Under the pieces are notes generated by a model. It saw only the letters and a program-made list of their open reading frames with translations. It ran no database searches and was not told the origin of the DNA. A stretch of DNA of 64,000 nucleotides from Daedaleopsis sinensis. Lineage: Eukaryota > Basidiomycota > Agaricomycetes > Polyporales > Polyporaceae. The DNA lies in the NCBI GenBank assembly GCA_033807695.1, contig CM066302.1, forward strand, positions 3,162,001 to 3,226,000, in the 5' to 3' direction. This document shows, piece by piece, positions 20,001-48,064 of the stretch. The stretch's first letter is position 1. Each line of letters opens with the position of its first letter. A program made the translations under genes and the position numbers.

Positions 20001-22776
20001 TGAGTCCCTCGGGCTTGTGCAACCCCGGGCTTCGATCAAAACGCTCATCGAGGTGGATGTGATAGTGACACCAGACATCGTAGAGGATTAGCAGAAGTAG
20101 AAGGCCAAACAAGAACAGCTGAAGCTGATAGACACAGTAGTCAATGTTCGGCTGGCTGTGGGCCGTTCAATTTGGGGAGGGGAAGGATGGCATAGCCCGG
20201 GCATCAGAAAGAGCGGGATTCGCGAAGCCCGCAACCATGAAGACCGAGGCCGGGTTTAACAAATAACGGCAGTCATGCAGGGTAAGCATCTGATACAGAC
20301 ATACACATTGGCAGAGAACGCACCCCTCTCCCTTTTGGAAATCCACAGTGGCGTGGGGGATGAAGAATCCGTGACGACTACAGGCCGCTGATCCTATACC
20401 TGTGGACTCCAGCGGGGCTCGTTCTAACCCGGCAGCCAGTATAGCCCGATGATCGTGGCATGCCAGTTTCTAAGACATAGCCCAGTTAACACAACCCGTG
20501 AAATCGTCAGAAAACCCCACCTGTCTAAATGTGACAGCAGTGCGCAGGTGCTCCTTGTACGGGGCATCGGTGACCATGAACCCATGCCCGTCTGCCAAAC
20601 GAACATCGGTCTCCGGATGCTTCATGTGCTGGTGTTGCGCGCTAAAGTTTCCATCCAATATGACTGTCGCCATGTACTTCCAGCTAGTGTACAAATCAGT
20701 CAGCAATTCAGTGTTGCATGAGTTTGACTAGAGTCCTTACGGGTCTGGGTCGTCTTTCCAGCCTTCCCGGAGATTGATGCCCGGCCGTGGGCAGGCCGGG
20801 CATGAAGTCACAAGCCCGCCGGGTTTAATCGGTTCTTCCCCAACGTAACCGACACCGTTTCTCTTTCGCGCTTTCAGATTCCGCCACTGGCGTGAAACAC
20901 GTAGTAGGTCTCGATAGCGGTCCTGCAGTGAGCACTTATAAGTGCCAGATTCAACCAAGTTCTCCATTCCCCAGGGACTCACCGGGACCATGTGCGGAAA
21001 CGACTCATTAGTGACCCGCCTAAGCTTGTTAAAGTAGTTCATAGTCGTAGTATGACACTCTTTGTTGGTTAGCAAAAAATTGTCGAGAGCTCGCGAAGTG
21101 AAAACTGTTCTCGGTCTTCGTGGGGTGGCTGGATAGAAACCCATGCGAAGCAGCTGGATGTCGAGGCTTTCACACCCGGGACATGTGCAGAATACAAAAG
21201 GGATTTCATGGACTCCAGAGGTGTCAATGACAACCATCATGGTCGAAGCCCGGAGATGCGAGTTTTGTCGGGTTTCAGCATGACGAAGACTTGGTGGATG
21301 CAGCACCTCCTCTCCAACCCGTGGCATAGCGGAGAAATCTTCCTGGTGAGCAATGTATGGACATTCGGTGTACTCCGCCTCGTCTTCAGGATCGTCATCC
21401 ACGATATCCACGGCAAGGGGGCCCTCCGAGTGATCGGGGTTCGTAGCCGCCCGGGTTTCGGTAATCGAGGTTGGATGCTCGGAGGAGTCGAGGTCCTGTT
21501 CGGCTGGACGCTTGTTCTTTCCCAAAAGTCTGGTCACAGGTGAGCTCTCAACAGAGCTTAGAAGAGTCGGGGTATCCGCTTGGTTTGTGCTGGGAGTGTC
21601 GACGGCTGGTGAGCGATAGCGGCTGATTTGTGCTCGGGGTGTTGTTGGTGCTTGGGGTGTTGCTGGCTGGGGATCTACGGATGCTTCTCCCTGTTGTGAT
21701 CCGGGGTTCGACCCGATCACCAGACGTGGCAGCTGTTGTCTCTGCATTGTTCTTCCAACAGCGGCAGTGAACGCCAAATTGACAGCACCTACAGGAATTG
21801 ACCATGTCAGTACATCCGTGATACCCTAAGCATGCTGCAATCACATACTGCGCCGAAAAGGGAGTGGGTGTATGAATCGGGTGGGAGTAACCGGGTTTGG
21901 TGACGGTGAAGCTACATTCAGTCAATTACAGCTGTATTCAACATCACAGAATAGATTAGCCTACCAGGAGTTATAGGACTACTAGGTGCAGTTCCATCCC
22001 GACTGTATATAGGAGAAGATGGAGGTGGCGTGGGGGCTGGTGAGATGTCCGGAGAAAAAGGGGATGTTCGCAGGGATGCCGGGCATCGGTTGCCACCATG
22101 CCCGAGGTTAACACAAACACCGAGTGTACGAAGCCAGGCAGGTTGGTAATGAGTACCGGTCCAGACTTCAACACGGTGAAATGGGTTCAATTCATGTAGA
22201 GTTGCGCAGCATTTGGAGCAGTATTTTCGGGTACCTAGGCAGTCGAGACAACGCCATAACGCTGGACTGCCGCATTTGCATTCTGCTGTTTCGCCACCGT
22301 CCTCCTGGCTATATAGCACATCGAGATATGGGTCCCGATAGTGGGCTTTCCACAGCCGCAGGTACTGGTTTGGAGTCTAACAAACAAGGGTGTCGGTGAG
22401 ATTGTTCAACACCAGCCGGGCTTCATGAAATCCGGGGACCGGGCTTCATAATACCCGGCGTTCAAAAAGCTGAGCCGGGCTTGGTTCAAGCACGCACCCG
22501 GCAAGGCATGTTCAACAGGTCTTGTTCATCATCAAATGTAAACTGTATCCCATTTTCAAAGTAACCACCGGGCCCAAATCGGTGAGGTGTGGATGGTGTT
22601 TGAGGTGCTTGAGGAAGAGGCGGTCTAGAAGGTGTGCCCGGGGCTGTAATGCCCGAGCTGGAAGGTGTCGGGGTTTGCACTTCACGGAGTACATACTTAA
22701 CACCACGGGATGTCCTCTGGGCAGTGACCTCGTTGACCGTGAACGATTTGAAAGCCTTCGTACAGGGACGGGCCAT
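17096..22776 (-). CDS. KDZ-family transposase with N-terminal CxC2 cysteine cluster
   Basis: A multi-exon minus-strand gene. Exon 1 starts at ATG 22776 (MARPCTKAFKSFTVNEVTAQ) and ends at a donor near 22500. Its intron is filled with CCGGG palindromes. The next exon gives CKCGSPALWRCLDC and YCSKCC, the CxC2 cluster associated with KDZ transposases. Further exons give FCTCPGCESLDIQLLRMGFY, ATPRRPRTVFTSRALDNFLL, CPACPRPGINL, VILDGNFSAQHQHMKHP and VRLADGHGF, then YDVWCHYHIHLDERF, GGIDQFHVHGHVRECYARFS and LETLWVNTNEISSSTRGMT, all family landmarks including catalytic-core acidic residues. The C-terminal half is a helical region rich in charged residues. It should bind element ends and excise or insert DNA. 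Open frames abut with plausible splice sites throughout, so the gene may be intact. Exact exon borders in the C-terminal half, and the stop, are uncertain. Confidence 0.85.
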
Positions 22777-36124: not shown

Positions 36125-36241
36125 CTAGTGGGAGCGCGGCGGCCATGTCGTCAGTGTCCGGCGCCATAGACCCCAGCGGCCCGCCTGGGTCCTTGGCTGG
36201 CGGGATATTTGTTCGCGTTCACTGTCGGCGCAGTCCCACCA
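36125..36241 (-). pseudogene. 3' end of the Cys-cluster gene split by the LTR element
   Basis: Reading the minus strand across the target duplication, this segment continues the frame that stops at 46518 on the far side of the retrotransposon. The stop is TAG at 36127-36125. The joined end has the Trp/Arg-rich character (GRWGLWRRTL) of the family's C-terminus. It is separated from the rest of its gene by 10.3 kb of inserted DNA. Confidence 0.7.
36237..36241. repeat. Target-site duplication CACCA, left copy
   Basis: Five bases directly before the 5' LTR, identical to 46518-46522 after the 3' LTR, as expected for a Ty3/Gypsy integrase. Confidence 0.95.
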
Positions 36242-36488
36242 TGTAAAGGCCGCGAGGCGTTAATACCCCGGTATTAACGCCTAGTGGCTGTGCTGGCGTC
36301 TCGAACCATGGACTACCGCTTATATCATCACTGTGGCTGAAGTACTGTACAGTTATCATGTAGTGTATCCGCGTATCAGGGGAAGAGAGAGGACAACTCT
36401 CTCTTCACCCCCCGTTGTACACGTCTCCTGAATATACAGGCTTGGACGAGTCACGACTAGGGCGAGGAGTAGACTCTGTGCATTTACA
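36242..36488 (+). repeat. 5' LTR (247 bp)
   Basis: Begins TGTAAAGGCC and ends GCATTTACA (TG...CA with a 6-base inverted end TGTAAA/TTTACA). By eye it is the same length as and appears identical to the 3' LTR, indicating recent insertion. It contains the inverted repeat GCGTTAATACC-CC-GGTATTAACGC near its start. The primer-binding site after it was not recognised: there is no TGG directly next to the LTR. Confidence 0.95.
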
Positions 36489-36525
36489 TCTTTTTTGACT
36501 CGCCTCGTACTCAATTCTAGGCGAC

Positions 36526-39500
36526 ATGTCTTTCTCAGGCGACGCTTCGAATTCCCACCAGGCCGGCAATCCAAACGCGGATCCCACGACGAGGACCAAT
36601 CCCTCGTCGCGAAGCACTCCGGCCGGAAGCTTCGCCACCGCCCCGACAGCTCCCCGGGCCCCGTACGTAACAGACGTACCGGACCAGGAACTGAGCCGGG
36701 GCGACAACTCAACATCAACGATTTCGCCGACTCCCCGAGGAGGACGGACCACCCCGCTGATCCGAGGCGCCCCCGGTGAGTCCCCCGAAATCCATCAACC
36801 AAATCCAACCATATCCCCGGCCGCGTTCGCGGCCAGTGCGTCGCAGATGGAAGCGGCGGCAGCGTCGAGTGATCGACGCCCCGCCCATTCCCCTGCGACG
36901 ACCGAGGAAAGACAGAACCGGGTGGCAGAAGTTGTCACGCAAAGCCAGTTAGCTTTGCGTGAACAAATGTATCTGCGCACCCAACAGCTTACCGAGCATG
37001 GCCACGAGTTAAATCAACTTCAAGCCCGCTCCACGGTAGTGATCCAGGAGTACGCCGATGAGGTACGAGCCGCACACGCCCGTACCAATCGCGCACTCCA
37101 GGACAACCAAAACATGATCCGCGATGTCGAGCAGACCATCGCGGAGGCGCGACTGCTACTAGGGCTACCTCCACTTTCGGAGATAGCCCAGCGCCGCAAC
37201 ATGGAGTTCAAGCCAGGCCCCCCAACTAACAATACGGAGCAAGACTCGGCGTCGCACGCGGTAGCCGAGTCTACGAGCTCGCACGCGCGACAGTCTGGCG
37301 AGAGTCTTGACGAATACGACGCGCGAATCACGCGCGCCGTACGACATCAAGGTCGCAACCGGCAGGCCATCCAGCCGAATGTGGACGAGGTGCTCCATGC
37401 CGCGAACGCATCGATACCGTCCGAGAACGAATCGTCGCGCTCAGTAGTCCCGCCGCCCGCGTTTGATGAGTCGAACGTAGATAGATATGCGTATCTACGT
37501 CCCACGTACAATGATATATTAAACGAGCAGCACGACGCTGCACGTATAATGCGCGACGCGCCTAACGCGCCGCGCGGCGAGAACGCGCATAGGGGGGAAC
37601 AAAATAATGTCAGGTTTGTTGCCCCCTCCGGCGAGACAGACCACTCGCGGCAGCCGGCGGGGTCCATCTCGGATGCACTCCGCCCAGGAGCTGCGAGGTA
37701 TGGCAATGTCACAATATACACGGCGGGACAGCCGATGAGCGTGCTTCAATCGACTGCCCCGCGCGCGGACACCACACCTACGGCGAATCCAAGAGCGCAT
37801 CTCGACGCGCTCTTGGAGCAGCTTGTCAATAACATCAGACACAAAGTAGGCAAGAAACTGGTCATCCCGGAAGGGATGAAGCATCCAAAGATTGAGGTAC
37901 CATCTAAATATGATGGTGCTAACAACCACCAAGTATTTTATACTTGGTTGGATGGAGTACTGGATTGGATGCGAGCATACAATGTATGCGGTCCGGACGC
38001 GGACGGATATCGACTGATATACTTGCGCCAGCATCTGAAAGGAGATGCTGACGACTGGTATGCTCAGGAGATAGACCATCCCGACAACTCGCGCACGCCA
38101 TCGTTCGAGGAGGCAGTATGCCTCCTGCACGCAAGGTTCGTGCACTCGAGCACGGCTGCCCGCGCGACGGAGGAGTTCATAAAGTGCGCATATCGCTCTC
38201 AGAATGGAGTGGAGCGATATGCAGCGGACTTACGCCGCCGCGCGCGCGAGATGATCGAGCATCCAACGGAATATGAAATGAAACGGAAGCTATTCAACGG
38301 GCTGCCTGATAACATCCGACGTAACCTCAGCATTAATCGAGGGATTACTGCTGAGTATAATCGTTGGGATACAATCGTGGAGAACGCTCGTCAACTCGAG
38401 GAGGCATATGCGGGCGCGGACGCGATTGGTCATCGCAACGCACCCACATATGTCCGCCCAACGACGAGCGCGAACCAGACAAGCCAGCACCGTCGAGACC
38501 GCGAAACGGGACGCAATCGGCACTCCCGCGAGCGACCGCGATCGCAATCGCGCGACCGCGGCCGTCGCGAGGAACCACGCGAATCGAGCTCGCGCACACC
38601 GACTGCAAAGACGCCTTACCGTCCTCCTACCCCCGGAGCAAAACCGCGTGATAACGCGTGTTTCGCCTGTGGCCAAGTGGGGCATTTCCGCGGTGACCCG
38701 TCATGCCCAAAAGCATCGCCGGGACCCGCGAATGCCCGTCCTCGACCCCGTTTCCACTCGCAACGAGTAGAAGACGGCGAGGAATCCGAACTGGGACCCG
38801 GCCCCGAGCAATGGGGCGGATCCCAGTACGAGAGTGATCATGGCTCACAGGGCGAGCCAGAGGAGGAGGAAAACGGAGAGGACGATGCAAGCTCGGAAGT
38901 AGTACGGGCGCAATCAATGCGAATCATTGATTGCGACTCGGAAACCGAGCCAGAAGAACCATACGTCCGTGTTTGCGCAATGCGTACGGAGCCCGGTGCA
39001 AAGGAGCGTGTGTATGCCATGAAGGCACACACGCCCCCGCAGGCCCCGAGAGAGCATTCGGCAACAGTACGGCGTAGGTCTACCACACCGCTCATGGTAC
39101 AACCCAACCGAAGCGCGAAAGAGACGGCGACGTTGTGCGCACTAGTCGACGTGAACGGGATCATGGCGTACACCCTGTTTGATACAGGGAGTACGACTGA
39201 TTCGATCACGCCGGAGTTTGCACATATATGCCGTGCTCCAAAAATAATACTGGAGCAACAAGTCACTCTACAACTTGGATGCTCCGGTAGCCGATCGAAG
39301 ATCAGCTATGGCACTAGAATACCGGTAAAGCTGGGGCCAGTGGACGATATCGTATACTTCGACCAAGTTAACCTTGATCGATACGACTGCGTCATTGGCA
39401 CACCATTCATGGCAAAGTATGGAGTAGTGCTCGATGTGCAGAGGCGGAACATTATAGTGAACGGCACTATAATCCCCGCCTTCAGCCATGAGCAGGACTC

Positions 39501-39540
39501 GGAGTACCGAAGCAACAGAAAGCGTGAAAGAAGTCCCTGA
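36526..39540 (+). CDS. Gag-protease polyprotein of the LTR element
   Basis: 1004 residues from ATG 36526, 37 bases after the 5' LTR. The first 130 residues are disordered. A coiled coil follows at about 140-230 (LREQMYLRTQQLTEHGHEL). A capsid-like helical domain at about 440-640 contains FYTWLDGVLDWMRAYNV and YLRQHLKGDADDWYAQE. A basic Arg/Ser segment precedes a zinc knuckle at 712-727 with C-x2-C-x4-H-x6-C spacing (the usual last gap is four). The retropepsin-like protease has its catalytic triplet DTG at 886-888 (YTLFDTGSTTDS) and the closing YDCVIGTPFM. Gag packages RNA and the protease cleaves the polyprotein. The frame ends at TGA 39538, directly followed in frame by Pol. Confidence 0.93.
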   Translation: MSFSGDASNSHQAGNPNADPTTRTNPSSRSTPAGSFATAPTAPRAPYVTDVPDQELSRGDNSTSTISPTPRGGRTTPLIRGAPGESPEIHQPNPTISPAAFAASASQMEAAAASSDRRPAHSPATTEERQNRVAEVVTQSQLALREQMYLRTQQLTEHGHELNQLQARSTVVIQEYADEVRAAHARTNRALQDNQNMIRDVEQTIAEARLLLGLPPLSEIAQRRNMEFKPGPPTNNTEQDSASHAVAESTSSHARQSGESLDEYDARITRAVRHQGRNRQAIQPNVDEVLHAANASIPSENESSRSVVPPPAFDESNVDRYAYLRPTYNDILNEQHDAARIMRDAPNAPRGENAHRGEQNNVRFVAPSGETDHSRQPAGSISDALRPGAARYGNVTIYTAGQPMSVLQSTAPRADTTPTANPRAHLDALLEQLVNNIRHKVGKKLVIPEGMKHPKIEVPSKYDGANNHQVFYTWLDGVLDWMRAYNVCGPDADGYRLIYLRQHLKGDADDWYAQEIDHPDNSRTPSFEEAVCLLHARFVHSSTAARATEEFIKCAYRSQNGVERYAADLRRRAREMIEHPTEYEMKRKLFNGLPDNIRRNLSINRGITAEYNRWDTIVENARQLEEAYAGADAIGHRNAPTYVRPTTSANQTSQHRRDRETGRNRHSRERPRSQSRDRGRREEPRESSSRTPTAKTPYRPPTPGAKPRDNACFACGQVGHFRGDPSCPKASPGPANARPRPRFHSQRVEDGEESELGPGPEQWGGSQYESDHGSQGEPEEEENGEDDASSEVVRAQSMRIIDCDSETEPEEPYVRVCAMRTEPGAKERVYAMKAHTPPQAPREHSATVRRRSTTPLMVQPNRSAKETATLCALVDVNGIMAYTLFDTGSTTDSITPEFAHICRAPKIILEQQVTLQLGCSGSRSKISYGTRIPVKLGPVDDIVYFDQVNLDRYDCVIGTPFMAKYGVVLDVQRRNIIVNGTIIPAFSHEQDSEYRSNRKRERSP

Positions 39541-39589
39541 CTCGCACACCCTCGCCGTGGTATTTCCAAAAGAAGTACCACGGTCGAGG
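39538..39589 (+). promoter_or_regulatory. Candidate recoding site 1: in-frame TGA plus bulged hairpin between Gag and Pol
   Basis: The TGA at 39538-39540 is the only stop between Gag and Pol in their shared frame, and the context is TGA-CTC. Nine bases on, CCTCGCCGTGGTA (39550-39562) pairs with TACCACGG-T-CGAGG (39576-39589): 13 base pairs, one bulged T, a 13-nt loop. A stop, a short spacer and a stable downstream structure is the layout of known readthrough signals. Readthrough itself is inference. Confidence 0.65.
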
Positions 39590-42500
39590 AAGTTGAAGAT
39601 CAGGACCTACGAGCGCAACGTGCTAAACCCACGTTACGCCATGATCATCCGTCAATATTTATCCCCTCGGACGAGGAGGATAAATATGAGAAAAAGAAGG
39701 CATCGGCAGACCGTAAAACTAAGAAGAAAAACAAAGTAAGTATCGTTGAAGAGGAAGATGAGGACATCAAGCGACAACGAGATGTTCCTCACCTTCCTCC
39801 ACATCATCCTTCCATATTCATGCCGACGGATGAGGAAGACAAGGAGCCTTCCTCACCCCGTATGAAAAAGAAACCAAGAAAAACAACGCACCGCTACAAG
39901 TCGGCGCAAAAGGGTCGACCAGGTAAAGAGCAGGAGACGGACTCACCACCGTCTCCCTCTGAACCCCGATCAACCCAAGCTGAGCCTTCAAATACGAGTG
40001 CGAATACCACTAAACCGAGGATCGTGCATATACGATACCCGGACAGTGAGCACGCTACACTATCCCGGATGGAGCCACGTATCAAGACACGGGACTCTCG
40101 CAACCCGACGCCTCCGCTGAAGTATCGCGATACTGTCAGTCGGAAGTCGAGCGAGAACGTTCGCAGGGATCGGTTTGGACGAGAGGATCCGTACGGAATC
40201 AATGACGCCATGGAGGATGAGATAGTTAATCAACTGTCTCAGCCCCAGCTAAAAGAAGAAGAACTGCCTCATATACGGAAGAAGTGGATAGAGGAGGTAT
40301 CCGATTTACTCGGAGACATCCCCCTAGTACTTCCTCCGTGGCGAGAAGTCAATCACCGAATACCGCTTGTTGACGATAACAAGCGGTATAACTACCATCA
40401 TCCTCGATGCCCGGATGCGCTCAAGGGCGCCCTCCGGGAAAAGATGGATAAATACATCAATGCGCAATGGTGGGAAATGAAACCCGCCACGCAAGCCGCA
40501 CCGTTGCTTTGCATTCCCAAAAAGAATGGAAAGCTACGTACGGTGGTCGATGCGCGACAACGGAACGATAACACGTTGAAAGACGTCACACCGTTCCCAG
40601 ATCAGGACAACATTCGATACGATGTCGCACGTGCAAAATATCGCACAAAGATCGATATGTCCGACGCGTACGAGCAGATCCGGATAGAGGCAGAGGACGT
40701 CTGGAAGACGGCGTTCTCTACCATCTACGGAACTGCCATTTCACACGTCATGCAGCAAGGCGACTGCAATGCTCCCAGTACGTTCCAACGACTCATGACA
40801 TGGATATTCCGAGAATACATCGGAATATTCGTGCACATATATCTTGATGACATATTCGTGTTCTCGGAAACTATGGAGGAACACGAGAGTCACTTGACCC
40901 TCGTGTTCCAGCGTCTCCGAGAGCAGCGAATGTACCTCAGCAAATCCAAACTAGACCTATACTCCGAGAGCATGGACTGTCTCGGCCATCTAATAGATGA
41001 CAAGGGACTCCACGCTGACTCGGACAAGATGGCTCGCATCCGCGACTGGAGGCCCATGAGATCGTTGAACGAAGTTCAACGATTTCTCGGACTCGTACAG
41101 TATCTGGCCCATTTCTTGCCCGACGTATCTGCATATACGTCGCCGCTCGAATCTATATGCCGGAACGGGCAACCTTTCCACTGGAGGCCGATTCATCAAG
41201 CGTGCTTGAATCGAATCAAGGCTCTGGCGTGCAAGGTGCCCATACTAAAGCCCATAGATCCCAAATCGGACGAACCGATTTGGGTGATCACGGACGCTTC
41301 AGTATATGGGGTCGGAGCCGTCTATGGACAAGGACCCGACTGGCGAACGTGTCGCCCAGCCGGGTTCATGTCCAAGAAATTCTCATCAGCGCAACGATCA
41401 TATCACACCTATGAGCAGGAAGCACTGGGTGTGATTGAGGCGTTGATGAAATGGGAAGACCGGCTGATTGGCCGCAAGTTCTTCATCGCGACTGACCATG
41501 AGGCTCTCACGAAGCTGAAGACAGCCTCGAGAGAGACCAAAAGTGGCCGGATCATACGATGGACCGAGTTCTTGGATCGATTCGACGCGCAGGTAGTGCA
41601 CGTCGAAGGCGAGCAGAACAAGGTCGCGGACTGTCTGTCGCGGTACTACGAAAACGATGGGGCAGACGATTTCCATCCAGTCGAGGAGTACGTCAACGCA
41701 GACGTCCGCCTCAACCCGGAATTAGACGATCTGCCCGAAGCGCGGAGAAAGGAATTGACTGCAGACGTGGAGGTTCGAGCTATGTCGCTTCGCCCGCCAC
41801 GTCCCCGTAAGGTCGATCCAAATAATGCCGCCGAGTGGCCCGTGAAACGGACTCGGAAGCCGCGCGACAAGGTCGAACCGCGTGAAGTGGAGGCGGCGGA
41901 GATGCACGACGTTGTCAGCGCCGTGACACTCCGCCACATTCCTACCGATACTGCGACGCTGAAGCAGCGCTACGAGCTATCGGAAGTCACGGTAAAAGAC
42001 GCCATGCAGGATGGACCTCCACTCGTCACCGCGCTCCGGACCAACGACGAATTGATGAAATCAATTCGCGCTGGTTACGGAGCGGATGCACTGTTCAAGA
42101 AGGTAGTAGAAAAACCTTCTGCATACCCGAACTTCACGGTCGAGGACGAACTACTATACGTCCGTACTCGACTGGGGTTCCAATGCCTGTGCATACCTCG
42201 AACGAAGCTCAAGGGTCGGCGACGATTGAACGAGATCGTCATCGACGCTGGGCATCGCACAATTGGGCACCTGGGACCTAGGAAGACCATCGAATATTTG
42301 CGTCGATGGGTATGGTGGCCCAGAATGTCAGTTGAAATCCAACAGTTCTGCGCTACATGCGAGACCTGCCAGATGTCAAAGACGAGCCCACAACCGCCCG
42401 CGGGATGGCTGCACTCGATGCCAATTCCACTGTTCCCGTGGCAGTCAGCGGGAATGGACTTTTTGGGCCCATTCCCCGACGCCAACGGGTACAACTACAT

Positions 42501-43578
42501 ATGGGTGGTACTGTGTAGACTGACCAGCATGGTACATCTGATACCATGCCGCGTCACAGACACGGCTACGGACCTAGCGTACATATACATCCGCGAAGTC
42601 ATACGACTTCACGGAGTACCCGAAACAATCGTATCGGATCGTGACTCTAAGTTCACGTCGCGATTTTGGCAAGAGGTACAACGTCTACTAGGAACGCAGT
42701 TGCTCATGTCAACTGCGTTCCACCCGCAGACGGACGGAGCGTCAGAGCGTGCTATCAGAAACGTAGGACAGATCCTACGTTCAATAGTACACCCAGACCA
42801 GTCCGACTGGCAGGAGAAGCTCCCGCTAGTCGAATTCGCTATAAATTCAAGTGTCAGCTCATCTACGGGGTACGCACCTTTCGAACTAATATACGGATAT
42901 ATGCCCAAGATGTCGTCATTCCCGACGATATCTAGGGCTCTACCCGGAGCCAAAGCGTTTGCAGAGCGCGCCCGACTGAACCTGGAGCAGGCGCACGACG
43001 CGATCATCGAGAGTCGCGTCGTGGCGGCCCACCAGGCTAACCGGCGGCGTGCGGCGGACCCTCCCCACTACAACGTTGGGGACTTAGTGTACTTATCCAC
43101 TAAGAACCTGGCGTTGCCAAAGGGCAGGGCACGCAAACTAGCCCCAAAGTACATTGGACCTTTCGAGATAAAGTCAGCGCATAATGATACATCTCATTAT
43201 ACGCTCGAATTACCGGAAGAGCTAAAGAAGCGACGAGTGCATCCATCGTTCCACTCGTCACTTCTGAAGCCCCATAATGCGAACGATGACGAACTATTCC
43301 CCGCTCGGGAAACCAAGAAGTTTTACGACTTCGGTATGCCCGACGATTTGGAGTGGCAGGTGGACGAGATAGTGGGACATCGATGGCAAGGAAATGCCAT
43401 CGAGCTCCTCGTACACTGGACAGTAGGCGAGCACACTTGGGAACCTGCGCACGAATGCGAGGATCTCAAGGCACTCGACGACTATCTAGCCGTACTCGGC
43501 GTAAGGGACTTGGCGCAGTTGCCGCGTAGGGAGCGCGATGCGCCCTCTACGAGTGCAAATGGTCCAAGGCGAGAATAG
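39541..43578 (+). CDS. Pol polyprotein: reverse transcriptase, RNase H, integrase, chromodomain
   Basis: Open from directly after TGA 39540; the first in-frame ATG is at 39820. Counting from that ATG, RT spans about 190-400 with IYLDDIFVFSE (catalytic YLDD at 341-344). RNase H follows (WVITDASVYGVGAVYGQ, ATDHEALTKL). The integrase has an HHCC finger (HRTIGHLGP...CATCETC), then the catalytic core (GMDFLGPFPDANGY, IVSDRDSKFTSRFW, AFHPQTDGASERAIRNVG). At the C-terminus EWQVDEIVGHRW and HTWEPAHECEDL form a chromodomain, which in chromoviruses steers integration to marked chromatin. There is no alternative start just after the Gag stop, so expression as Gag-Pol through the stop is the simplest reading. 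It ends with TAG 43576-43578. Confidence 0.95.
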   Translation, partial: LAHPRRGISKRSTTVEEVEDQDLRAQRAKPTLRHDHPSIFIPSDEEDKYEKKKASADRKTKKKNKVSIVEEEDEDIKRQRDVPHLPPHHPSIFMPTDEEDKEPSSPRMKKKPRKTTHRYKSAQKGRPGKEQETDSPPSPSEPRSTQAEPSNTSANTTKPRIVHIRYPDSEHATLSRMEPRIKTRDSRNPTPPLKYRDTVSRKSSENVRRDRFGREDPYGINDAMEDEIVNQLSQPQLKEEELPHIRKKWIEEVSDLLGDIPLVLPPWREVNHRIPLVDDNKRYNYHHPRCPDALKGALREKMDKYINAQWWEMKPATQAAPLLCIPKKNGKLRTVVDARQRNDNTLKDVTPFPDQDNIRYDVARAKYRTKIDMSDAYEQIRIEAEDVWKTAFSTIYGTAISHVMQQGDCNAPSTFQRLMTWIFREYIGIFVHIYLDDIFVFSETMEEHESHLTLVFQRLREQRMYLSKSKLDLYSESMDCLGHLIDDKGLHADSDKMARIRDWRPMRSLNEVQRFLGLVQYLAHFLPDVSAYTSPLESICRNGQPFHWRPIHQACLNRIKALACKVPILKPIDPKSDEPIWVITDASVYGVGAVYGQGPDWRTCRPAGFMSKKFSSAQRSYHTYEQEALGVIEALMKWEDRLIGRKFFIATDHEALTKLKTASRETKSGRIIRWTEFLDRFDAQVVHVEGEQNKVADCLSRYYENDGADDFHPVEEYVNADVRLNPELDDLPEARRKELTADVEVRAMSLRPPRPRKVDPNNAAEWPVKRTRKPRDKVEPREVEAAEMHDVVSAVTLRHIPTDTATLKQRYELSEVTVKDAMQDGPPLVTALRTNDELMKSIRAGYGADALFKKVVEKPSAYPNFTVEDELLYVRTRLGFQCLCIPRTKLKGRRRLNEIVIDAGHRTIGHLGPRKTIEYLRRWVWWPRMSVEIQQFCATCETCQMSKTSPQPPAGWLHSMPIPLFPWQSAGMDFLGPFPDANGYNYIWVVLCRLTSMVHLIPCRVTDTATDLAYIYIREVIRLHGVPETIVSDRDSKFTSRFWQEVQRLLGTQLLMSTAFHPQTDGASERAIRNVGQILRSIVHPDQSDWQEKLPLVEFAINSSVSSSTGYAPFELIYGYMPKMSSFPTISRALPGAKAFAERARLNLEQAHDAIIESRVVAAHQANRRRAADPPHYNVGDLVYLSTKNLALPKGRARKLAPKYIGPFEIKSAHNDTSHYTLELPEELKKRRVHPSFHSSLLKPHNANDDELFPARETKKFYDFGMPDDLEWQVDEIVGHRWQGNAIELLVHWTVGEHTWEPAHECEDLKALDDYLAVLGVRDLAQLPRRERDAPSTSANGPRRE

Positions 43579-43615
43579 CAATCAGGCCGCGCGCGTGTAA
43601 TGACGCGTCGCGGCC
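43576..43615 (+). promoter_or_regulatory. Candidate recoding site 2: TAG-CAA-TCA plus bulged hairpin between Pol and ORF3
   Basis: The Pol stop TAG is followed by CAATCA, which fits the UAG-CAR-YYA leaky-stop consensus known from tobamoviruses and from the plant element SIRE1. Immediately after, GGCCGCGCGCGT (43585-43596) pairs with ACGCG-T-CGCGGCC (43603-43615): 12 base pairs, one bulged T, a 6-nt loop. The frame stays open into ORF3. The structure mirrors that at the Gag/Pol stop. Confidence 0.65.
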
Positions 43616-46152
43616 ACGTGACAGGAATTGAGGCTCCGCCCCAATTCCACATGCGTGGGATAGCGCCAGCTCAGGACGCTGGCGGACTTCGAATCATTTT
43701 CCTGCATCTCTTCTTCTCGACTATCGCCTACTCCCACCCACCCGACCCGATGAACTCCCACAACGCCCCAACCGCCGGCTCGCCGACAACAAGATCCACC
43801 GCCGGAGACTCGTGGGGCGCTGCGCCCACCAATACGTGGGGTGAGCCGTCCTCTCACGGTGGCTGGGGACCGCCGCCGCCACAGGACCCGAGTAGCGTGT
43901 CCAGAAGGGGAGGATCGGTGGCGGAAGCCCCCCCGCTTCCGCCGACCGTCCATGCCCCCCCGGCACCTCAACAACAACTCCCCCCGATCCCGCAATACTA
44001 CCCGGGGCCGATGTACGGGCAACAGCCCATGTACATCGGCGCCCAGGGGTACCCAGTCCCACAAATGATGACTGCAGCCGCCACCCCGGAGGACCCATGG
44101 CGCATTGCATACAATGCGTCATGCAAGACCGTCGAGGCGCTGCAGGCGCGCATCAACGATCTTGCAAAACGGAACGACGAGGTCGAGGCCGAGCTTCGCG
44201 AGACGCGGCAACGAGAACACTCGTTGCGCGAACGCGAGGCTGAGGTCGCGAGGCGTGAGGCCGACTTGCAGCAACGTCAGTTGCAACTTGTCGGCCCGCC
44301 GCCCCGCAATCGCGACCTTCGCGCGTCGTCGCACGCACCGCCAAGGAGGTCCGACTCGGGATGGCCGCAGCGTCAGTTCGTGGCGCCCGCCACCGCCCAG
44401 CCGGCCGGCCCCTCGTCGTCAACTTCCACCGGCCCCTCCTCCGCAACCCAGAACTTCGGGCCCGCTGCTCCGCCCAACCAGACGGTCGAGACTACTGTCC
44501 CGATCGTCCAGCTGGCGGACCAGGACACCCCGATGACGATCGCCGAGAACGCCCCGGCCGAATCGTCATCCGGGATCATCCCATTAAAGCGCGCCAACGA
44601 GGATGGGAACGCTATGGCAGTCGTGCCCGCGCCCGCGATCGACAACGCGCAGCTCCAGCGCGACGATTTGGGCCAGCGTATTCCCAACGCGCTCATCTCG
44701 TCGCACGCTGTTGGCCCAGGGCCTGACCCTTCAGTCGAGGGCCAGCCCTGGTCCAAGTGGTATATATGGTGGCGCGGCTCGAACGTGGGCGAGCAGATCG
44801 ACAAAGTGCTCGACACCACTCCCTCCGCGAACGAGCATGGGCCAGTCCCATTCGAGATCCCGGAGTGGGCAGAGAACGAGTGCACGACGGAGGGCGAGGA
44901 AGAGGAGGACAAGCGTGTTCGTCGATCGGCTCGCCGACCGAAGAGCACTCCTCCTCCCAACCCCCCCAAATTCGGGCAGCTGCCGTGTGGTCCTTGGGAG
45001 GGAGTGAAGATTGTGACGCTCCACCAAGCGCACAACCTTCGCTGCCTCGCCATCAACGAGAAGAACGTCGAGGCCATGCGCTTTTATACGCGCTTGACGC
45101 ACGTCGCGCACGAGCCCACTGCGCGCCGAAATGAGGGGCTTCGCTACCTCATTTCGGCGTACCCGCACGACCAGAAGTACATCGCGCCTTTCAAAGCGCA
45201 GGCACTCGAAAATGTCCCTCCCGTTCCCGGACCATCCTCATCATCATCATCCCTTCCTGCTCCCGTCGCCCCTGCCGAGCCGCAGATCCCCGCGCTCCGC
45301 GTCATCCCCTACGAGACCGATACCGCCCAGCAGTGGCTCACGCGCTCGAGATCGGGCCGTGACCGGTTCATCTCGAGCCTTGGGTCCACCGGCGAGGTGA
45401 TCCGTCACTTCGCGGCGAAGCCAACCGCGGAATGGCCGCTTGGGATGCGCACGCGCGAGAACCTTGTTCCGGCTCCCCCGACGGTCCTCGCGATGCCGCA
45501 GGCCGCCGACGTCGTGGCTGAGACGTTTCTCTCCACGATCCTGCCATTCGTGCCGCCCGGTGTCGTCGAGCGGTACGAGGAGTCCTCATTCTTCCGCGGC
45601 GCTATCGAGCTCCTCTCCATCGACGGCGTGTACGAGTGGATCGTACAGCAAGGGCAGTACGACATGCTGCTAGTGGAGATGACCCCGGCGCCCTACCCCT
45701 ACGACTGCCGAGGCCTCTGCTACCACCACATCGCGGCCTGGATAGCGGCGCATTCGGCACCCTCGCTCGGCGAGCTCACCGCGGCCCTCCACTCCTACGC
45801 GCGCCAGACCCGTTGCCGTCTCGAGGACCTCCCTATCGGCACTACCCGCTTCCCCTCCGTGCCCCGCGACACCCTCGACATCTGCCACGAGTCGTACGCG
45901 TCTCGCATACCACTGCGCGAGCATGCATTCGCCCGCACGGAACGCGACTACAACACCCCGCCGGCTGAGGACATCATAATGGGAGAAGCGCCCGCGCGAA
46001 TCGCGCCGCCGCCCACTACCCCTTCCTCCTCCTCATCCGCCGCTCGCGCCGCCGCTTCCGCCGCCGCACCCTCGTCGTCCGCACCCGCTGCCGCCATCGC
46101 ACCGTCCGCCGCTGCCGCTCCCACTTCCGCTCCCGCTCCCTCCACGGACTAG
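43600..46152 (+). CDS. Third ORF of the LTR element, function unknown
   Basis: 850 codons from ATG 43600, in the same frame as Pol and 21 bases after its stop; an alternative ATG lies at 43750. Residues about 45-170 are Pro/Gly/Tyr-rich. A strong coiled coil covers about 175-235 (RNDEVEAELRETRQREHSLR, REAEVARREADLQQRQ). The middle is Pro/Ser-rich with an acidic patch and RRSARRP. A conserved-looking globular part (about 570-770) has RFISSLGSTGEVIRHFA, TFLSTILPFVPPGVVERYEE and CYHHIAAWIAA. The last 60 residues are Ala/Ser/Pro repeats. There is no signal peptide and no membrane segment, so an envelope role is not supported. A Gag-like or host-interacting role is speculative. I do not recognise the family. 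Confidence 0.85.
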   Translation: MTRRGHVTGIEAPPQFHMRGIAPAQDAGGLRIIFLHLFFSTIAYSHPPDPMNSHNAPTAGSPTTRSTAGDSWGAAPTNTWGEPSSHGGWGPPPPQDPSSVSRRGGSVAEAPPLPPTVHAPPAPQQQLPPIPQYYPGPMYGQQPMYIGAQGYPVPQMMTAAATPEDPWRIAYNASCKTVEALQARINDLAKRNDEVEAELRETRQREHSLREREAEVARREADLQQRQLQLVGPPPRNRDLRASSHAPPRRSDSGWPQRQFVAPATAQPAGPSSSTSTGPSSATQNFGPAAPPNQTVETTVPIVQLADQDTPMTIAENAPAESSSGIIPLKRANEDGNAMAVVPAPAIDNAQLQRDDLGQRIPNALISSHAVGPGPDPSVEGQPWSKWYIWWRGSNVGEQIDKVLDTTPSANEHGPVPFEIPEWAENECTTEGEEEEDKRVRRSARRPKSTPPPNPPKFGQLPCGPWEGVKIVTLHQAHNLRCLAINEKNVEAMRFYTRLTHVAHEPTARRNEGLRYLISAYPHDQKYIAPFKAQALENVPPVPGPSSSSSSLPAPVAPAEPQIPALRVIPYETDTAQQWLTRSRSGRDRFISSLGSTGEVIRHFAAKPTAEWPLGMRTRENLVPAPPTVLAMPQAADVVAETFLSTILPFVPPGVVERYEESSFFRGAIELLSIDGVYEWIVQQGQYDMLLVEMTPAPYPYDCRGLCYHHIAAWIAAHSAPSLGELTAALHSYARQTRCRLEDLPIGTTRFPSVPRDTLDICHESYASRIPLREHAFARTERDYNTPPAEDIIMGEAPARIAPPPTTPSSSSSAARAAASAAAPSSSAPAAAIAPSAAAAPTSAPAPSTD

Positions 46153-46256
46153 TTCCCCGGTTACGTTCGTTACCATCTTCCTTCGCACGCGCATCCTGCG
46201 CGATCCACTCATTCTATTTCTATTGGTTTACGTATATGTTACGACCGCTGCTCGGT

Positions 46257-46270
46257 CGAGAGGGGGAGGA
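46257..46270 (+). other. Polypurine tract
   Basis: A purine-rich run (GAGAGGGGGAGGA) directly abuts the TGTAAA start of the 3' LTR, the expected primer site for plus-strand DNA synthesis. Confidence 0.85.
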
Positions 46271-46517
46271 TGTAAAGGCCGCGAGGCGTTAATACCCCGG
46301 TATTAACGCCTAGTGGCTGTGCTGGCGTCTCGAACCATGGACTACCGCTTATATCATCACTGTGGCTGAAGTACTGTACAGTTATCATGTAGTGTATCCG
46401 CGTATCAGGGGAAGAGAGAGGACAACTCTCTCTTCACCCCCCGTTGTACACGTCTCCTGAATATACAGGCTTGGACGAGTCACGACTAGGGCGAGGAGTA
46501 GACTCTGTGCATTTACA
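46271..46517 (+). repeat. 3' LTR (247 bp)
   Basis: By eye this matches the 5' LTR base for base over 247 positions, beginning TGTAAAGGCC and ending GCATTTACA. It is followed by the right copy of the CACCA duplication. Confidence 0.95.
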
Positions 46518-46522
46518 CACCA
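46518..46522. repeat. Target-site duplication CACCA, right copy
   Basis: Identical to the five bases before the 5' LTR. Confidence 0.95.
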
Positions 46523-46987: not shown

Positions 46988-47499
46988 GCACGGAGCTCTA
47001 TTACAACCCCGACATCACACCGGTACATCGCTGACACCATCGCCGACAGCAGCCCGATAAACCTCACTTCACGCACCTTCCCCTCCTATTCCTATCCACA
47101 CGGTCTACCAGCAGTGCACCCCCGACGCTCCCCTTGCATCGGCGCAGCACCGAGATTCAGTGACCCACAGTAGTATCACCGACATCGGCACCCACCAGAC
47201 AGGTTCGGCGGTCTGCGCAGACAACTCGGCCGAGGGCTGTTTGGCGATGTGCAGGGCACAGCCACTATGGGTCTAGAGCTATAGACACAGGCCTCTGGGT
47301 CTCGGCCCAGTATCTCCAGCAGTATCACGTGTTCGGCGGTATGCCGATGCATCGGAGATCAGTAGCTTAGTTGTGGTCTGTATATCTTTAGAGTAGGTGC
47401 CTCAGGAATGGAGCTCCCCCCTTGGCCCCAGCAGTGTTCAGTTCTCAGTGATGCTAGCAGGGTCTAGACTTCTTGCCAATGCCTTTTCCATCGCCGATA

Positions 47500-47605
47500 T
47501 CGTGTTTCCACTCGCCGACATCGGGTTTCCACTCGCCGACATCGGGTTTCCACTCGCCGACATCGGGTTTCCACTCGCCGACATCGGGTTTCCACTCGCC
47601 GACAC
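47500..47605. repeat. 21-bp minisatellite, about five copies
   Basis: Tandem copies of about TTTCCACTCGCCGACATCGG plus G. It lies in the 1-kb stretch separating the two halves of the Cys-cluster gene, together with the GACGCTTCCCC-type array that follows. Confidence 0.93.
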
Positions 47606-47659
47606 TGTGCGCTTATCGGCGCTCTTCTTATGCCTGACTCTATTGCACATACTGCCATC

Positions 47660-47925
47660 CCTTCCTCGACGCTTCCCCCGACGCTTTCCCTGATGGTTCC
47701 CCCGATACGTTCCCCGACACTTCCCTCAACACTTTCCCCGATGGTTTTCCCGAAACGTTCCCCGACGCTTTCCCCGATGGTTTCCCCGACGCTTTCCCCG
47801 ACGCTTCCCCCGACGCTTCCCCCGACGCTTCCCCCAATGGTTCCCCCGATGCTCGCCCCGATGCACTCCCTGATACGTTCCCCGACACACTCCCCGACAC
47901 GTTCCCTGACGCACTCCCCGCAGGG
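47660..47925. repeat. Short-unit tandem array (about 10-15 bp units, CGACGCTTCCCC and CGATGGTTCCCC)
   Basis: Many imperfect units of the pattern TTCCCCGAC/TGCTT or GGTT. Both strands stay open by composition (for example GEASGEASGKASGK). I treat this as non-coding repeat, although it may lie in an intron or linker of the split gene. Confidence 0.88.
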
Positions 47926-48064
47926 CTTGCCAGTGGCCTTTCGGCGCTCTGCGCACTCTTTGTCGATGGTTTGATGCTTGCCTGGTGTGTTGCCCTGGTT
48001 GGGAATCAGCTGGACTCCCTCCTTTTGTTTTCCTGTGGTCTTTTGGTTGGGTACAGCCTTAGAT

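Follow-up and report, generated by a model that had tools for sequence, protein, structure and literature searches.

A conserved in-frame stop codon between Gag-protease and Pol, a proposed readthrough site, in a fungal Ty3/Gypsy retrotransposon with a third ORF

The window analysed here, a 64,000-nucleotide stretch of the Daedaleopsis sinensis genome (assembly GCA_033807695.1, contig CM066302.1, positions 3,162,001 to 3,226,000), contains a young fungal retrotransposon of the Ty3/Gypsy group, whose features are listed in Table 1. The initial annotation had placed it at 36526..46152, an extent that starts only at the Gag ATG; with its LTRs the whole element covers 36242-46517. The order RT-RNase H-integrase in Pol, between direct LTRs, is that of Ty3/Gypsy (Metaviridae) elements. 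The Pfam scan of Pol gave RT, RNase H, H2C2 zinc finger, integrase core, SH3_Tf2-1-like and chromo-like domains; RT, RNase H and H2C2 exceeded the Pfam cut-offs, whereas the integrase core, with 28.0 bits, stayed under its cut-off of 32.6. A C-terminal chromodomain marks the chromovirus branch of Ty3/Gypsy; the chromo match was in the expected place but weak (E 0.005), its 17.2 bits falling short of the cut-off of 25.1. In Gag-PR, matches to RVP_2 (E 5.3e-4), Retrotrans_gag (0.0055) and zf-CCHC (0.026) were obtained, all three under the Pfam cut-offs. The three stop-to-stop frames (36499-39540, 39541-43578 and 43579-46152) adjoin one another in one shared frame, with the Gag ATG at 36526, and the ORF map agreed with the earlier reading that only the TGA at 39538 and the TAG at 43576 interrupt it. 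The other sequence features first described were also found again: the first in-frame ATG of Pol lies 279 nt past the TGA, the TAG is followed by CAATCA, and refolding returned a hairpin 9 bases past the TGA and another 6 bases past the TAG, each with a single bulge in the 3' arm.

Table 1. Features of the retrotransposon, in window coordinates
Feature	Position	Strand	Basis
Target site duplication CACCA	36237..36241, partner 46518-46522	.	Read off the sequence
5' LTR, 247 bp, TGTAAA...TTTACA	36242..36488	+	100% identical direct repeat; ends from TG..CA and the target site duplication
Gag-PR ORF, terminated by TGA	36526..39540	+	ORF map and Pfam scan
Aspartyl protease inside Gag-PR	~39136-39462	+	RVP_2 match, sub-cut-off
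Stop 1, TGA CTC, at the PR-RT border; putative readthrough site	39538..39540	+	
Pol ORF, terminated by TAG	39541..43578	+	ORF map and Pfam scan
Pre-ATG segment of Pol, 93 codons	39541..39819	+	A/B protein-level constraint
Hairpin past stop 1, single bulged base in 3' arm	39550..39589	+	Folding, A/B comparison
Stop 2, TAG CAATCA, fits UAG-CAR-YYA	43576..43578	+	
Pol-ORF3 interval, 171 nt, Pol frame open; proposed promoter/5' leader of ORF3	43579..43749	+	
Hairpin past stop 2, single bulged T; no counterpart found in family B	43585..43615	+	
ORF3 from proposed own ATG, MNSHN..., 800 aa	43750..46152	+	No Pfam family
Polypurine tract	46258..46270	+	Read off the sequence
3' LTR, 247 bp	46271..46517	+	Identical to 5' LTR

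Relatives of the element were sought in the same genome, a 51.6-Mb assembly of 24 contigs, and the Gag-PR/Pol/ORF3 layout proved to be common to six families, A-F, A being that of the window element. From the 94 matches that were listed, 30 were extracted as loci (L032-L061). Junction 1 (Gag-PR/Pol) was read in 24 loci, L032-L055: it is present in 17 loci of A-F and lacking in L049, a fragment of A, and the remaining six (L050-L055) are of G/H type. L056-L061 were used in the tree only. These 17 loci consisted of nine copies of A, three of B, two of C and one each of D, E and F; junction 2 (Pol/ORF3) was read in eight A copies and in the same numbers of the other families. Family B is about 63% identical to A in the first third of Pol. 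In D, about 33 kb of one contig separate the two junctions, which were assumed to belong to one broken copy; its parts, G000:C5:1412381-1415713 and 1377600-1379765, are on the same strand, as if nested insertions had split the element.

In the RT tree the families paired as A+B, C+D and E+F, and the split between A-F and the more distant families G and H had a support of 83/92, under the tree tool's own mark. G and H have a related RT, and their integrase C-terminal region is 41-47% identical to that of the element, but their Gag and Pol are mostly fused: five of the six loci had no stop and a frame open for 1500 nt upstream, and the sixth, L052, carried two TGAs, 747 and 1470 nt upstream. At three G/H loci, on contigs C1, C10 and C3, a probable polypurine tract and LTR start followed directly past the Pol stop, and ORF3 was not seen in the 208-357 nt read past that stop. 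Relatives sought among viral contigs gave none, only 10 pattern matches, and a loose DNA pattern search returned 324 and 365 matches compared with 245 and 218 in the reversed control and was uninformative.

An in-frame stop at the PR-RT border, with Pol in the frame of Gag, was present in all 17 inspected junction-bearing loci of A-F. Its context was TGA CTC in A and D, TGA CTA in B and C, TAG AGG in E, and TAG GAG in F; of the 2009 TGA triplets on the two strands of the window, 111 precede CT. In five of the nine A copies the TGA lay between full-length open frames of Gag (1013 codons) and of Pol (1345 codons). Extra in-frame stops upstream were found in six of the 17 loci (many in L037 and L043, where Gag is broken, one each in L038, L039 and L042, and two in L040) and in none of the other 11 over the 1500 nt seen. 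Among these six, one A copy had a TGA 30 nt ahead of stop 1, and Gag was out of frame farther upstream in two copies, one of A and one of B.

The start of Pol is devoid of ATG over 279 nt in A, 315 nt in E and 453 nt in D. Over the 93 codons between the TGA and the point where A has its first ATG, A and B differed at 47.9 of 61.7 synonymous sites, which is saturated, and at 90.1 of 217.3 non-synonymous sites. Because B has an ATG after 40 codons, the comparison was repeated on just those 40 codons, in which neither family has an ATG; this gave pS 0.74 and pN 0.33, with 13, 13 and 25 changes at codon positions 1, 2 and 3. This protein-level constraint on the pre-ATG part of Pol implied that the stretch is translated, and in the Gag frame. 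Between E and F, dS was 1.36 and dN 0.44 over the 105 codons that precede the first ATG in E; the only 29 codons that are ATG-less in both gave pS 0.47 and pN 0.41, with no clear constraint. C and D offered just 19 testable pre-ATG codons (pS 0.23, pN 0.15).

The hairpin downstream of stop 1 was more stable than any of 200 dinucleotide shuffles (z -7.27), and with 300 shuffles its z was -7.39, whereas none of 160 background windows along the element, scored with 60 shuffles each, fell below -6.3. It could be folded in all nine A copies, one of which had a C-G to U-G change and one a broken pair. Although B differs from A at 26 of 60 positions, the stem and its single 3' bulge were kept, with one compensatory pair, and the A/B stem scored z -5.6 with none of 500 column shuffles reaching it; a pair-count shuffle of the same alignment gave no significance (134/500). 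The A/B hairpin was not unique, since lower scores occurred in 2 of 135 Pol and 1 of 68 Gag windows, and 3 of 135 Pol windows were at or below its score in a separate run. E and F have a different stem, which starts from the sixth base past the TAG (z -3.4, 2/500 column shuffles), and nothing convincing was found past stop 1 in C/D (z -1.5, 41/500 column shuffles). Single-sequence folds of this junction in B-F were weak, with z from -1.5 to +0.1. Structure past stop 1 was thus conserved in A/B and in E/F but not in C/D, and the second hairpin was not found in B.

With the stop in 17 of 17 loci, the A/B constraint, and the hairpins of A/B and E/F, production of Gag-Pol by readthrough of stop 1 is well supported as the probable use of this junction. 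Other origins of the pattern were weighed. Plant Ogre elements have an intron between protease and RT, the position that stop 1 occupies, and fungal introns are short, so that a spliced intron might take out the stop in some transcripts; we consider this very unlikely, because one locus per family (A-F) showed no GTRNGY donor within 200 nt upstream of the stop, the 180 nt downstream contain no YAG that aligns between A and B, and the A/B flanks that such an intron would take out are constrained as protein. Non-consensus donors were listed for A and B only. Splice sites around the stop, by which Ogre-type elements are defined, were not found at this junction in these searches for consensus donors and aligned acceptors. 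Internal or non-AUG initiation, by which Pol would be made separately, could account for the long ATG-less starts in A, E and D, but Pol keeps the Gag frame in six of six families while ORF3, the natural comparison, drifts, and this route seems highly improbable.

Two further explanations hold the least probability. A-to-I editing would turn UGA or UAG into UGG and make ribosomal readthrough unnecessary, and the facts that stop 1 is TGA or TAG and never TAA in the six families and that a hairpin is close by are in keeping with it; the UGA-CUN context, however, is expected from readthrough and not from editing, and editing appears barely credible. Decay of a fused frame, for which the fused Gag-Pol of G and H could have provided the starting point, is just as hard to credit: the LTRs of the window copy are identical, both Gag and Pol are open in five of nine A copies, and the stop position is common to 17 of 17 loci, so that this explanation is already contradicted unless all copies were mobilised in trans. 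Readthrough of stop 1 is the reading that we retain for the Gag-PR/Pol junction.

The junction of Pol and ORF3 behaved differently. Relative to Pol, ORF3 is in frame (0) in A, C and D, shifted by +2 in B and E, and by +1 in F, so the TAG, its context and the ORF3 frame did not prove to be conserved, C and D being in frame behind TGA CTA and TGA CTG, respectively. In all three B copies a TGA in the ORF3 frame lies 22 codons ahead of the ORF3 ATG, and in E the interval is open in the Pol frame too, yet ORF3 is in another. The Pol stops of the out-of-frame families are TAG ACG or TAG ACA in B, TGA CGC in E, and TGA CCG in F, and the folds past stop 2 had z -1.6, +0.6 and -0.45 in these families, respectively. 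The distance from the Pol stop to the ORF3 ATG was 155-215 nt across the six families. Between -70 and -20 of that ATG the pyrimidine fraction was 0.68-0.80 in all six, and the pyrimidine-rich 50 nt before the ATG ranked 1st to 10th among 166-300 local windows. Between C and D, the interval gave pS 0.336, pN 0.299 and omega 0.86 over 55 codons, compared with an omega of 0.29 in ORF3 (399 codons) and 0.19 in the Pol C-terminus (93 codons); its changes were spread evenly over the codon positions (14, 19 and 18 of 56), and 21 of 1000 random 55-codon stretches of ORF3 reached its pN/pS. The C/D interval looks like an untranslated leader or an unconstrained linker. A splice acceptor before ORF3 was also considered and is not favoured: no AG lies nearer than 54 nt to the ORF3 ATG in A, B, E and F, while C has an AG at -37 and D at -12.

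The initial annotation had proposed two successive readthrough steps, giving Gag, Gag-Pol and Gag-Pol-ORF3. The step at the TGA is the one retained above; as a conserved strategy the two-step scheme was rejected, given that B, E and F carry ORF3 in a frame other than that of Pol and that protein constraint is lacking in the C/D interval. A restricted form, in which such readthroughs occur at least in A and C/D, has several observations on its side. TAG CAATCA was present in eight of eight A copies, and only 2 of 1066 TAG triplets in the window, stop 2 among them, are followed by CARYYA. The second hairpin of A had z -2.98, with 1 of 200 dinucleotide shuffles as stable, and the interval is open in frame. 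The Pol stops of C (TGA CTAG) and D (TGA CTGG) are likewise followed by an interval open in frame up to the ORF3 ATG, a 6-nt indel between the two preserves the frame, and a stem from the fourth base past stop 2 scored z -3.55 (1/500 column shuffles) with two compensatory pairs. In-frame ORF3, in A and in C/D, thus goes together with a leaky-looking stop and a hairpin, a pairing that a purely separate ORF3 does not predict. Apart from the frames of B, E and F and the interval omega, the evidence against it includes structure scores similar to that of the C/D stem in 2 of 59 C/D ORF3 windows, a pair-count shuffle of that stem of 122/500, and an A copy on contig C7 with a 1-nt deletion 9 nt ahead of the ORF3 ATG, its ORF3 otherwise open, which also has a premature Gag stop. 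Compared with background windows of the element, hairpin 2 (z -3.04) was not outstanding, at least 8 of 160 windows being lower.

Translation of ORF3 from its own AUG is more likely than translation via readthrough. Two independent lineages cannot settle the matter, and only a low weight was given to the second readthrough: that A and, independently, C/D would add to an ORF3 made from its own AUG a low-level Gag-Pol-ORF3 fusion via a second leaky stop is rather unlikely, and readthrough of stop 2 in A, C and D could be a minor route. If it did occur, three nested proteins would come from one mRNA by way of two stop codons, each accompanied by a stem-loop of its own.

The model that we consider likely as a whole, on the sequence comparisons described here, combines a leaky stop 1, which would give Gag-PR-Pol, with an ORF3 made mostly from its own AUG. 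Most ribosomes would terminate at the UGA past Gag-PR and so produce the structural protein, and a minority would read through it to make Gag-PR-Pol, presumably aided by the UGA-CUN context and the stem-loop 9 nt downstream, with an efficiency that we can only infer. ORF3 would most likely start at AUG 43750, probably on a short mRNA of its own begun from a putative promoter in the pyrimidine-rich interval after Pol, and the common frame of Pol and ORF3 in family A would be mostly coincidence or a minor side route.

Known leaky stop contexts include the TMV-type UAG-CAR-YYA and UGA-CUA, and several systems that use such stops resemble parts of the element. Gammaretroviruses such as MLV make Gag-Pol by readthrough of an in-frame stop with a downstream RNA structure, and the window element resembles them in this arrangement. 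A single in-frame Gag/Pol stop is common to the families studied here (with extra Gag stops in some copies), and a structure downstream of it was conserved in A/B and E/F but not in C/D; unlike MLV, they have UGA (A-D) or UAG (E-F), a protease upstream of the stop, a predicted stem-loop in place of a demonstrated pseudoknot, and a fungal host. Tca2/pCal of Candida, a Ty1/Copia element, uses UGA readthrough for Gag-Pol, again with a downstream structure. It resembles the present element as a fungal LTR element with an in-frame UGA between Gag and Pol and structure downstream, but the latter is Ty3/Gypsy and has the additional ORF3. In SIRE1 of soybean, UAG-CAR-YYA readthrough leads into an env-like ORF, and family A has the same TAG-CAR-YYA past Pol with a frame open into a third ORF; unlike in SIRE1, the motif is not kept in the sister family, the C/D interval is unconstrained, and a plausible start ATG is available to ORF3 itself. 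UAG-CAR-YYA together with an in-frame third ORF across relatives was not found in A-F. If readthrough of stop 1 is confirmed, a fungal Ty3/Gypsy lineage would set its Gag:Pol ratio by stop-codon suppression. UGA families, UAG families and fused relatives in one genome, the G/H elements having a related RT but a mostly fused Gag-Pol, would form a natural series on the origin of the strategy and on how the stop codon changes while the function stays. The ORF3 junction supplies an internal contrast, its frame drifting as expected from a separate translation start.

ORF3 of A and B was 38-48% identical, that of C and D 62% (over part of D), and that of E and F 30% over 300 aa. Profile comparison linked A/B with E/F (E 1e-4) and C/D with E/F (E 4e-5) via the C-terminal domain, with no direct link between A/B and C/D. 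The Pfam scan of ORF3 from A, B, C and E returned sub-cut-off matches only, and the AlphaFold model of the C-terminal domain had a mean pLDDT of 50.6. Derivation of ORF3 from a detached tail of an ancestral fused Pol was not upheld, as two G and one H Pol tails showed no significant similarity to it (best E 2.2). Five ORFs of 210-246 aa (L026-L030, at G000:C2:67045, C11:2231, C2:4971070, C4:4675462 and C11:3475823), all within about 70 kb of contig ends, were 35-37% identical to ORF3-frame residues 374-535; they may represent a captured gene or ancient relatives of the element that sit close to chromosome ends.

On contig C4, at about 1834588-1875320, copies of the element and a distant minus-strand Pol match recurred every 16,009 nt exactly (1841977 and 1857986; 1834588, 1850597 and 1866606), a spacing that looks like recent tandem amplification of a block containing the element. 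In the window, two adjoining tandem arrays with 21-nt and 12-nt units lie just downstream of the element, at 47463-47956. Among ten ORFs scanned, two neighbours of the element carry domains that indicate a fungal host: Aip3/Bud6 in one and, in an ORF at 20740-21825 on the minus strand, a CxC2 cysteine cluster of the kind linked to KDZ transposases.
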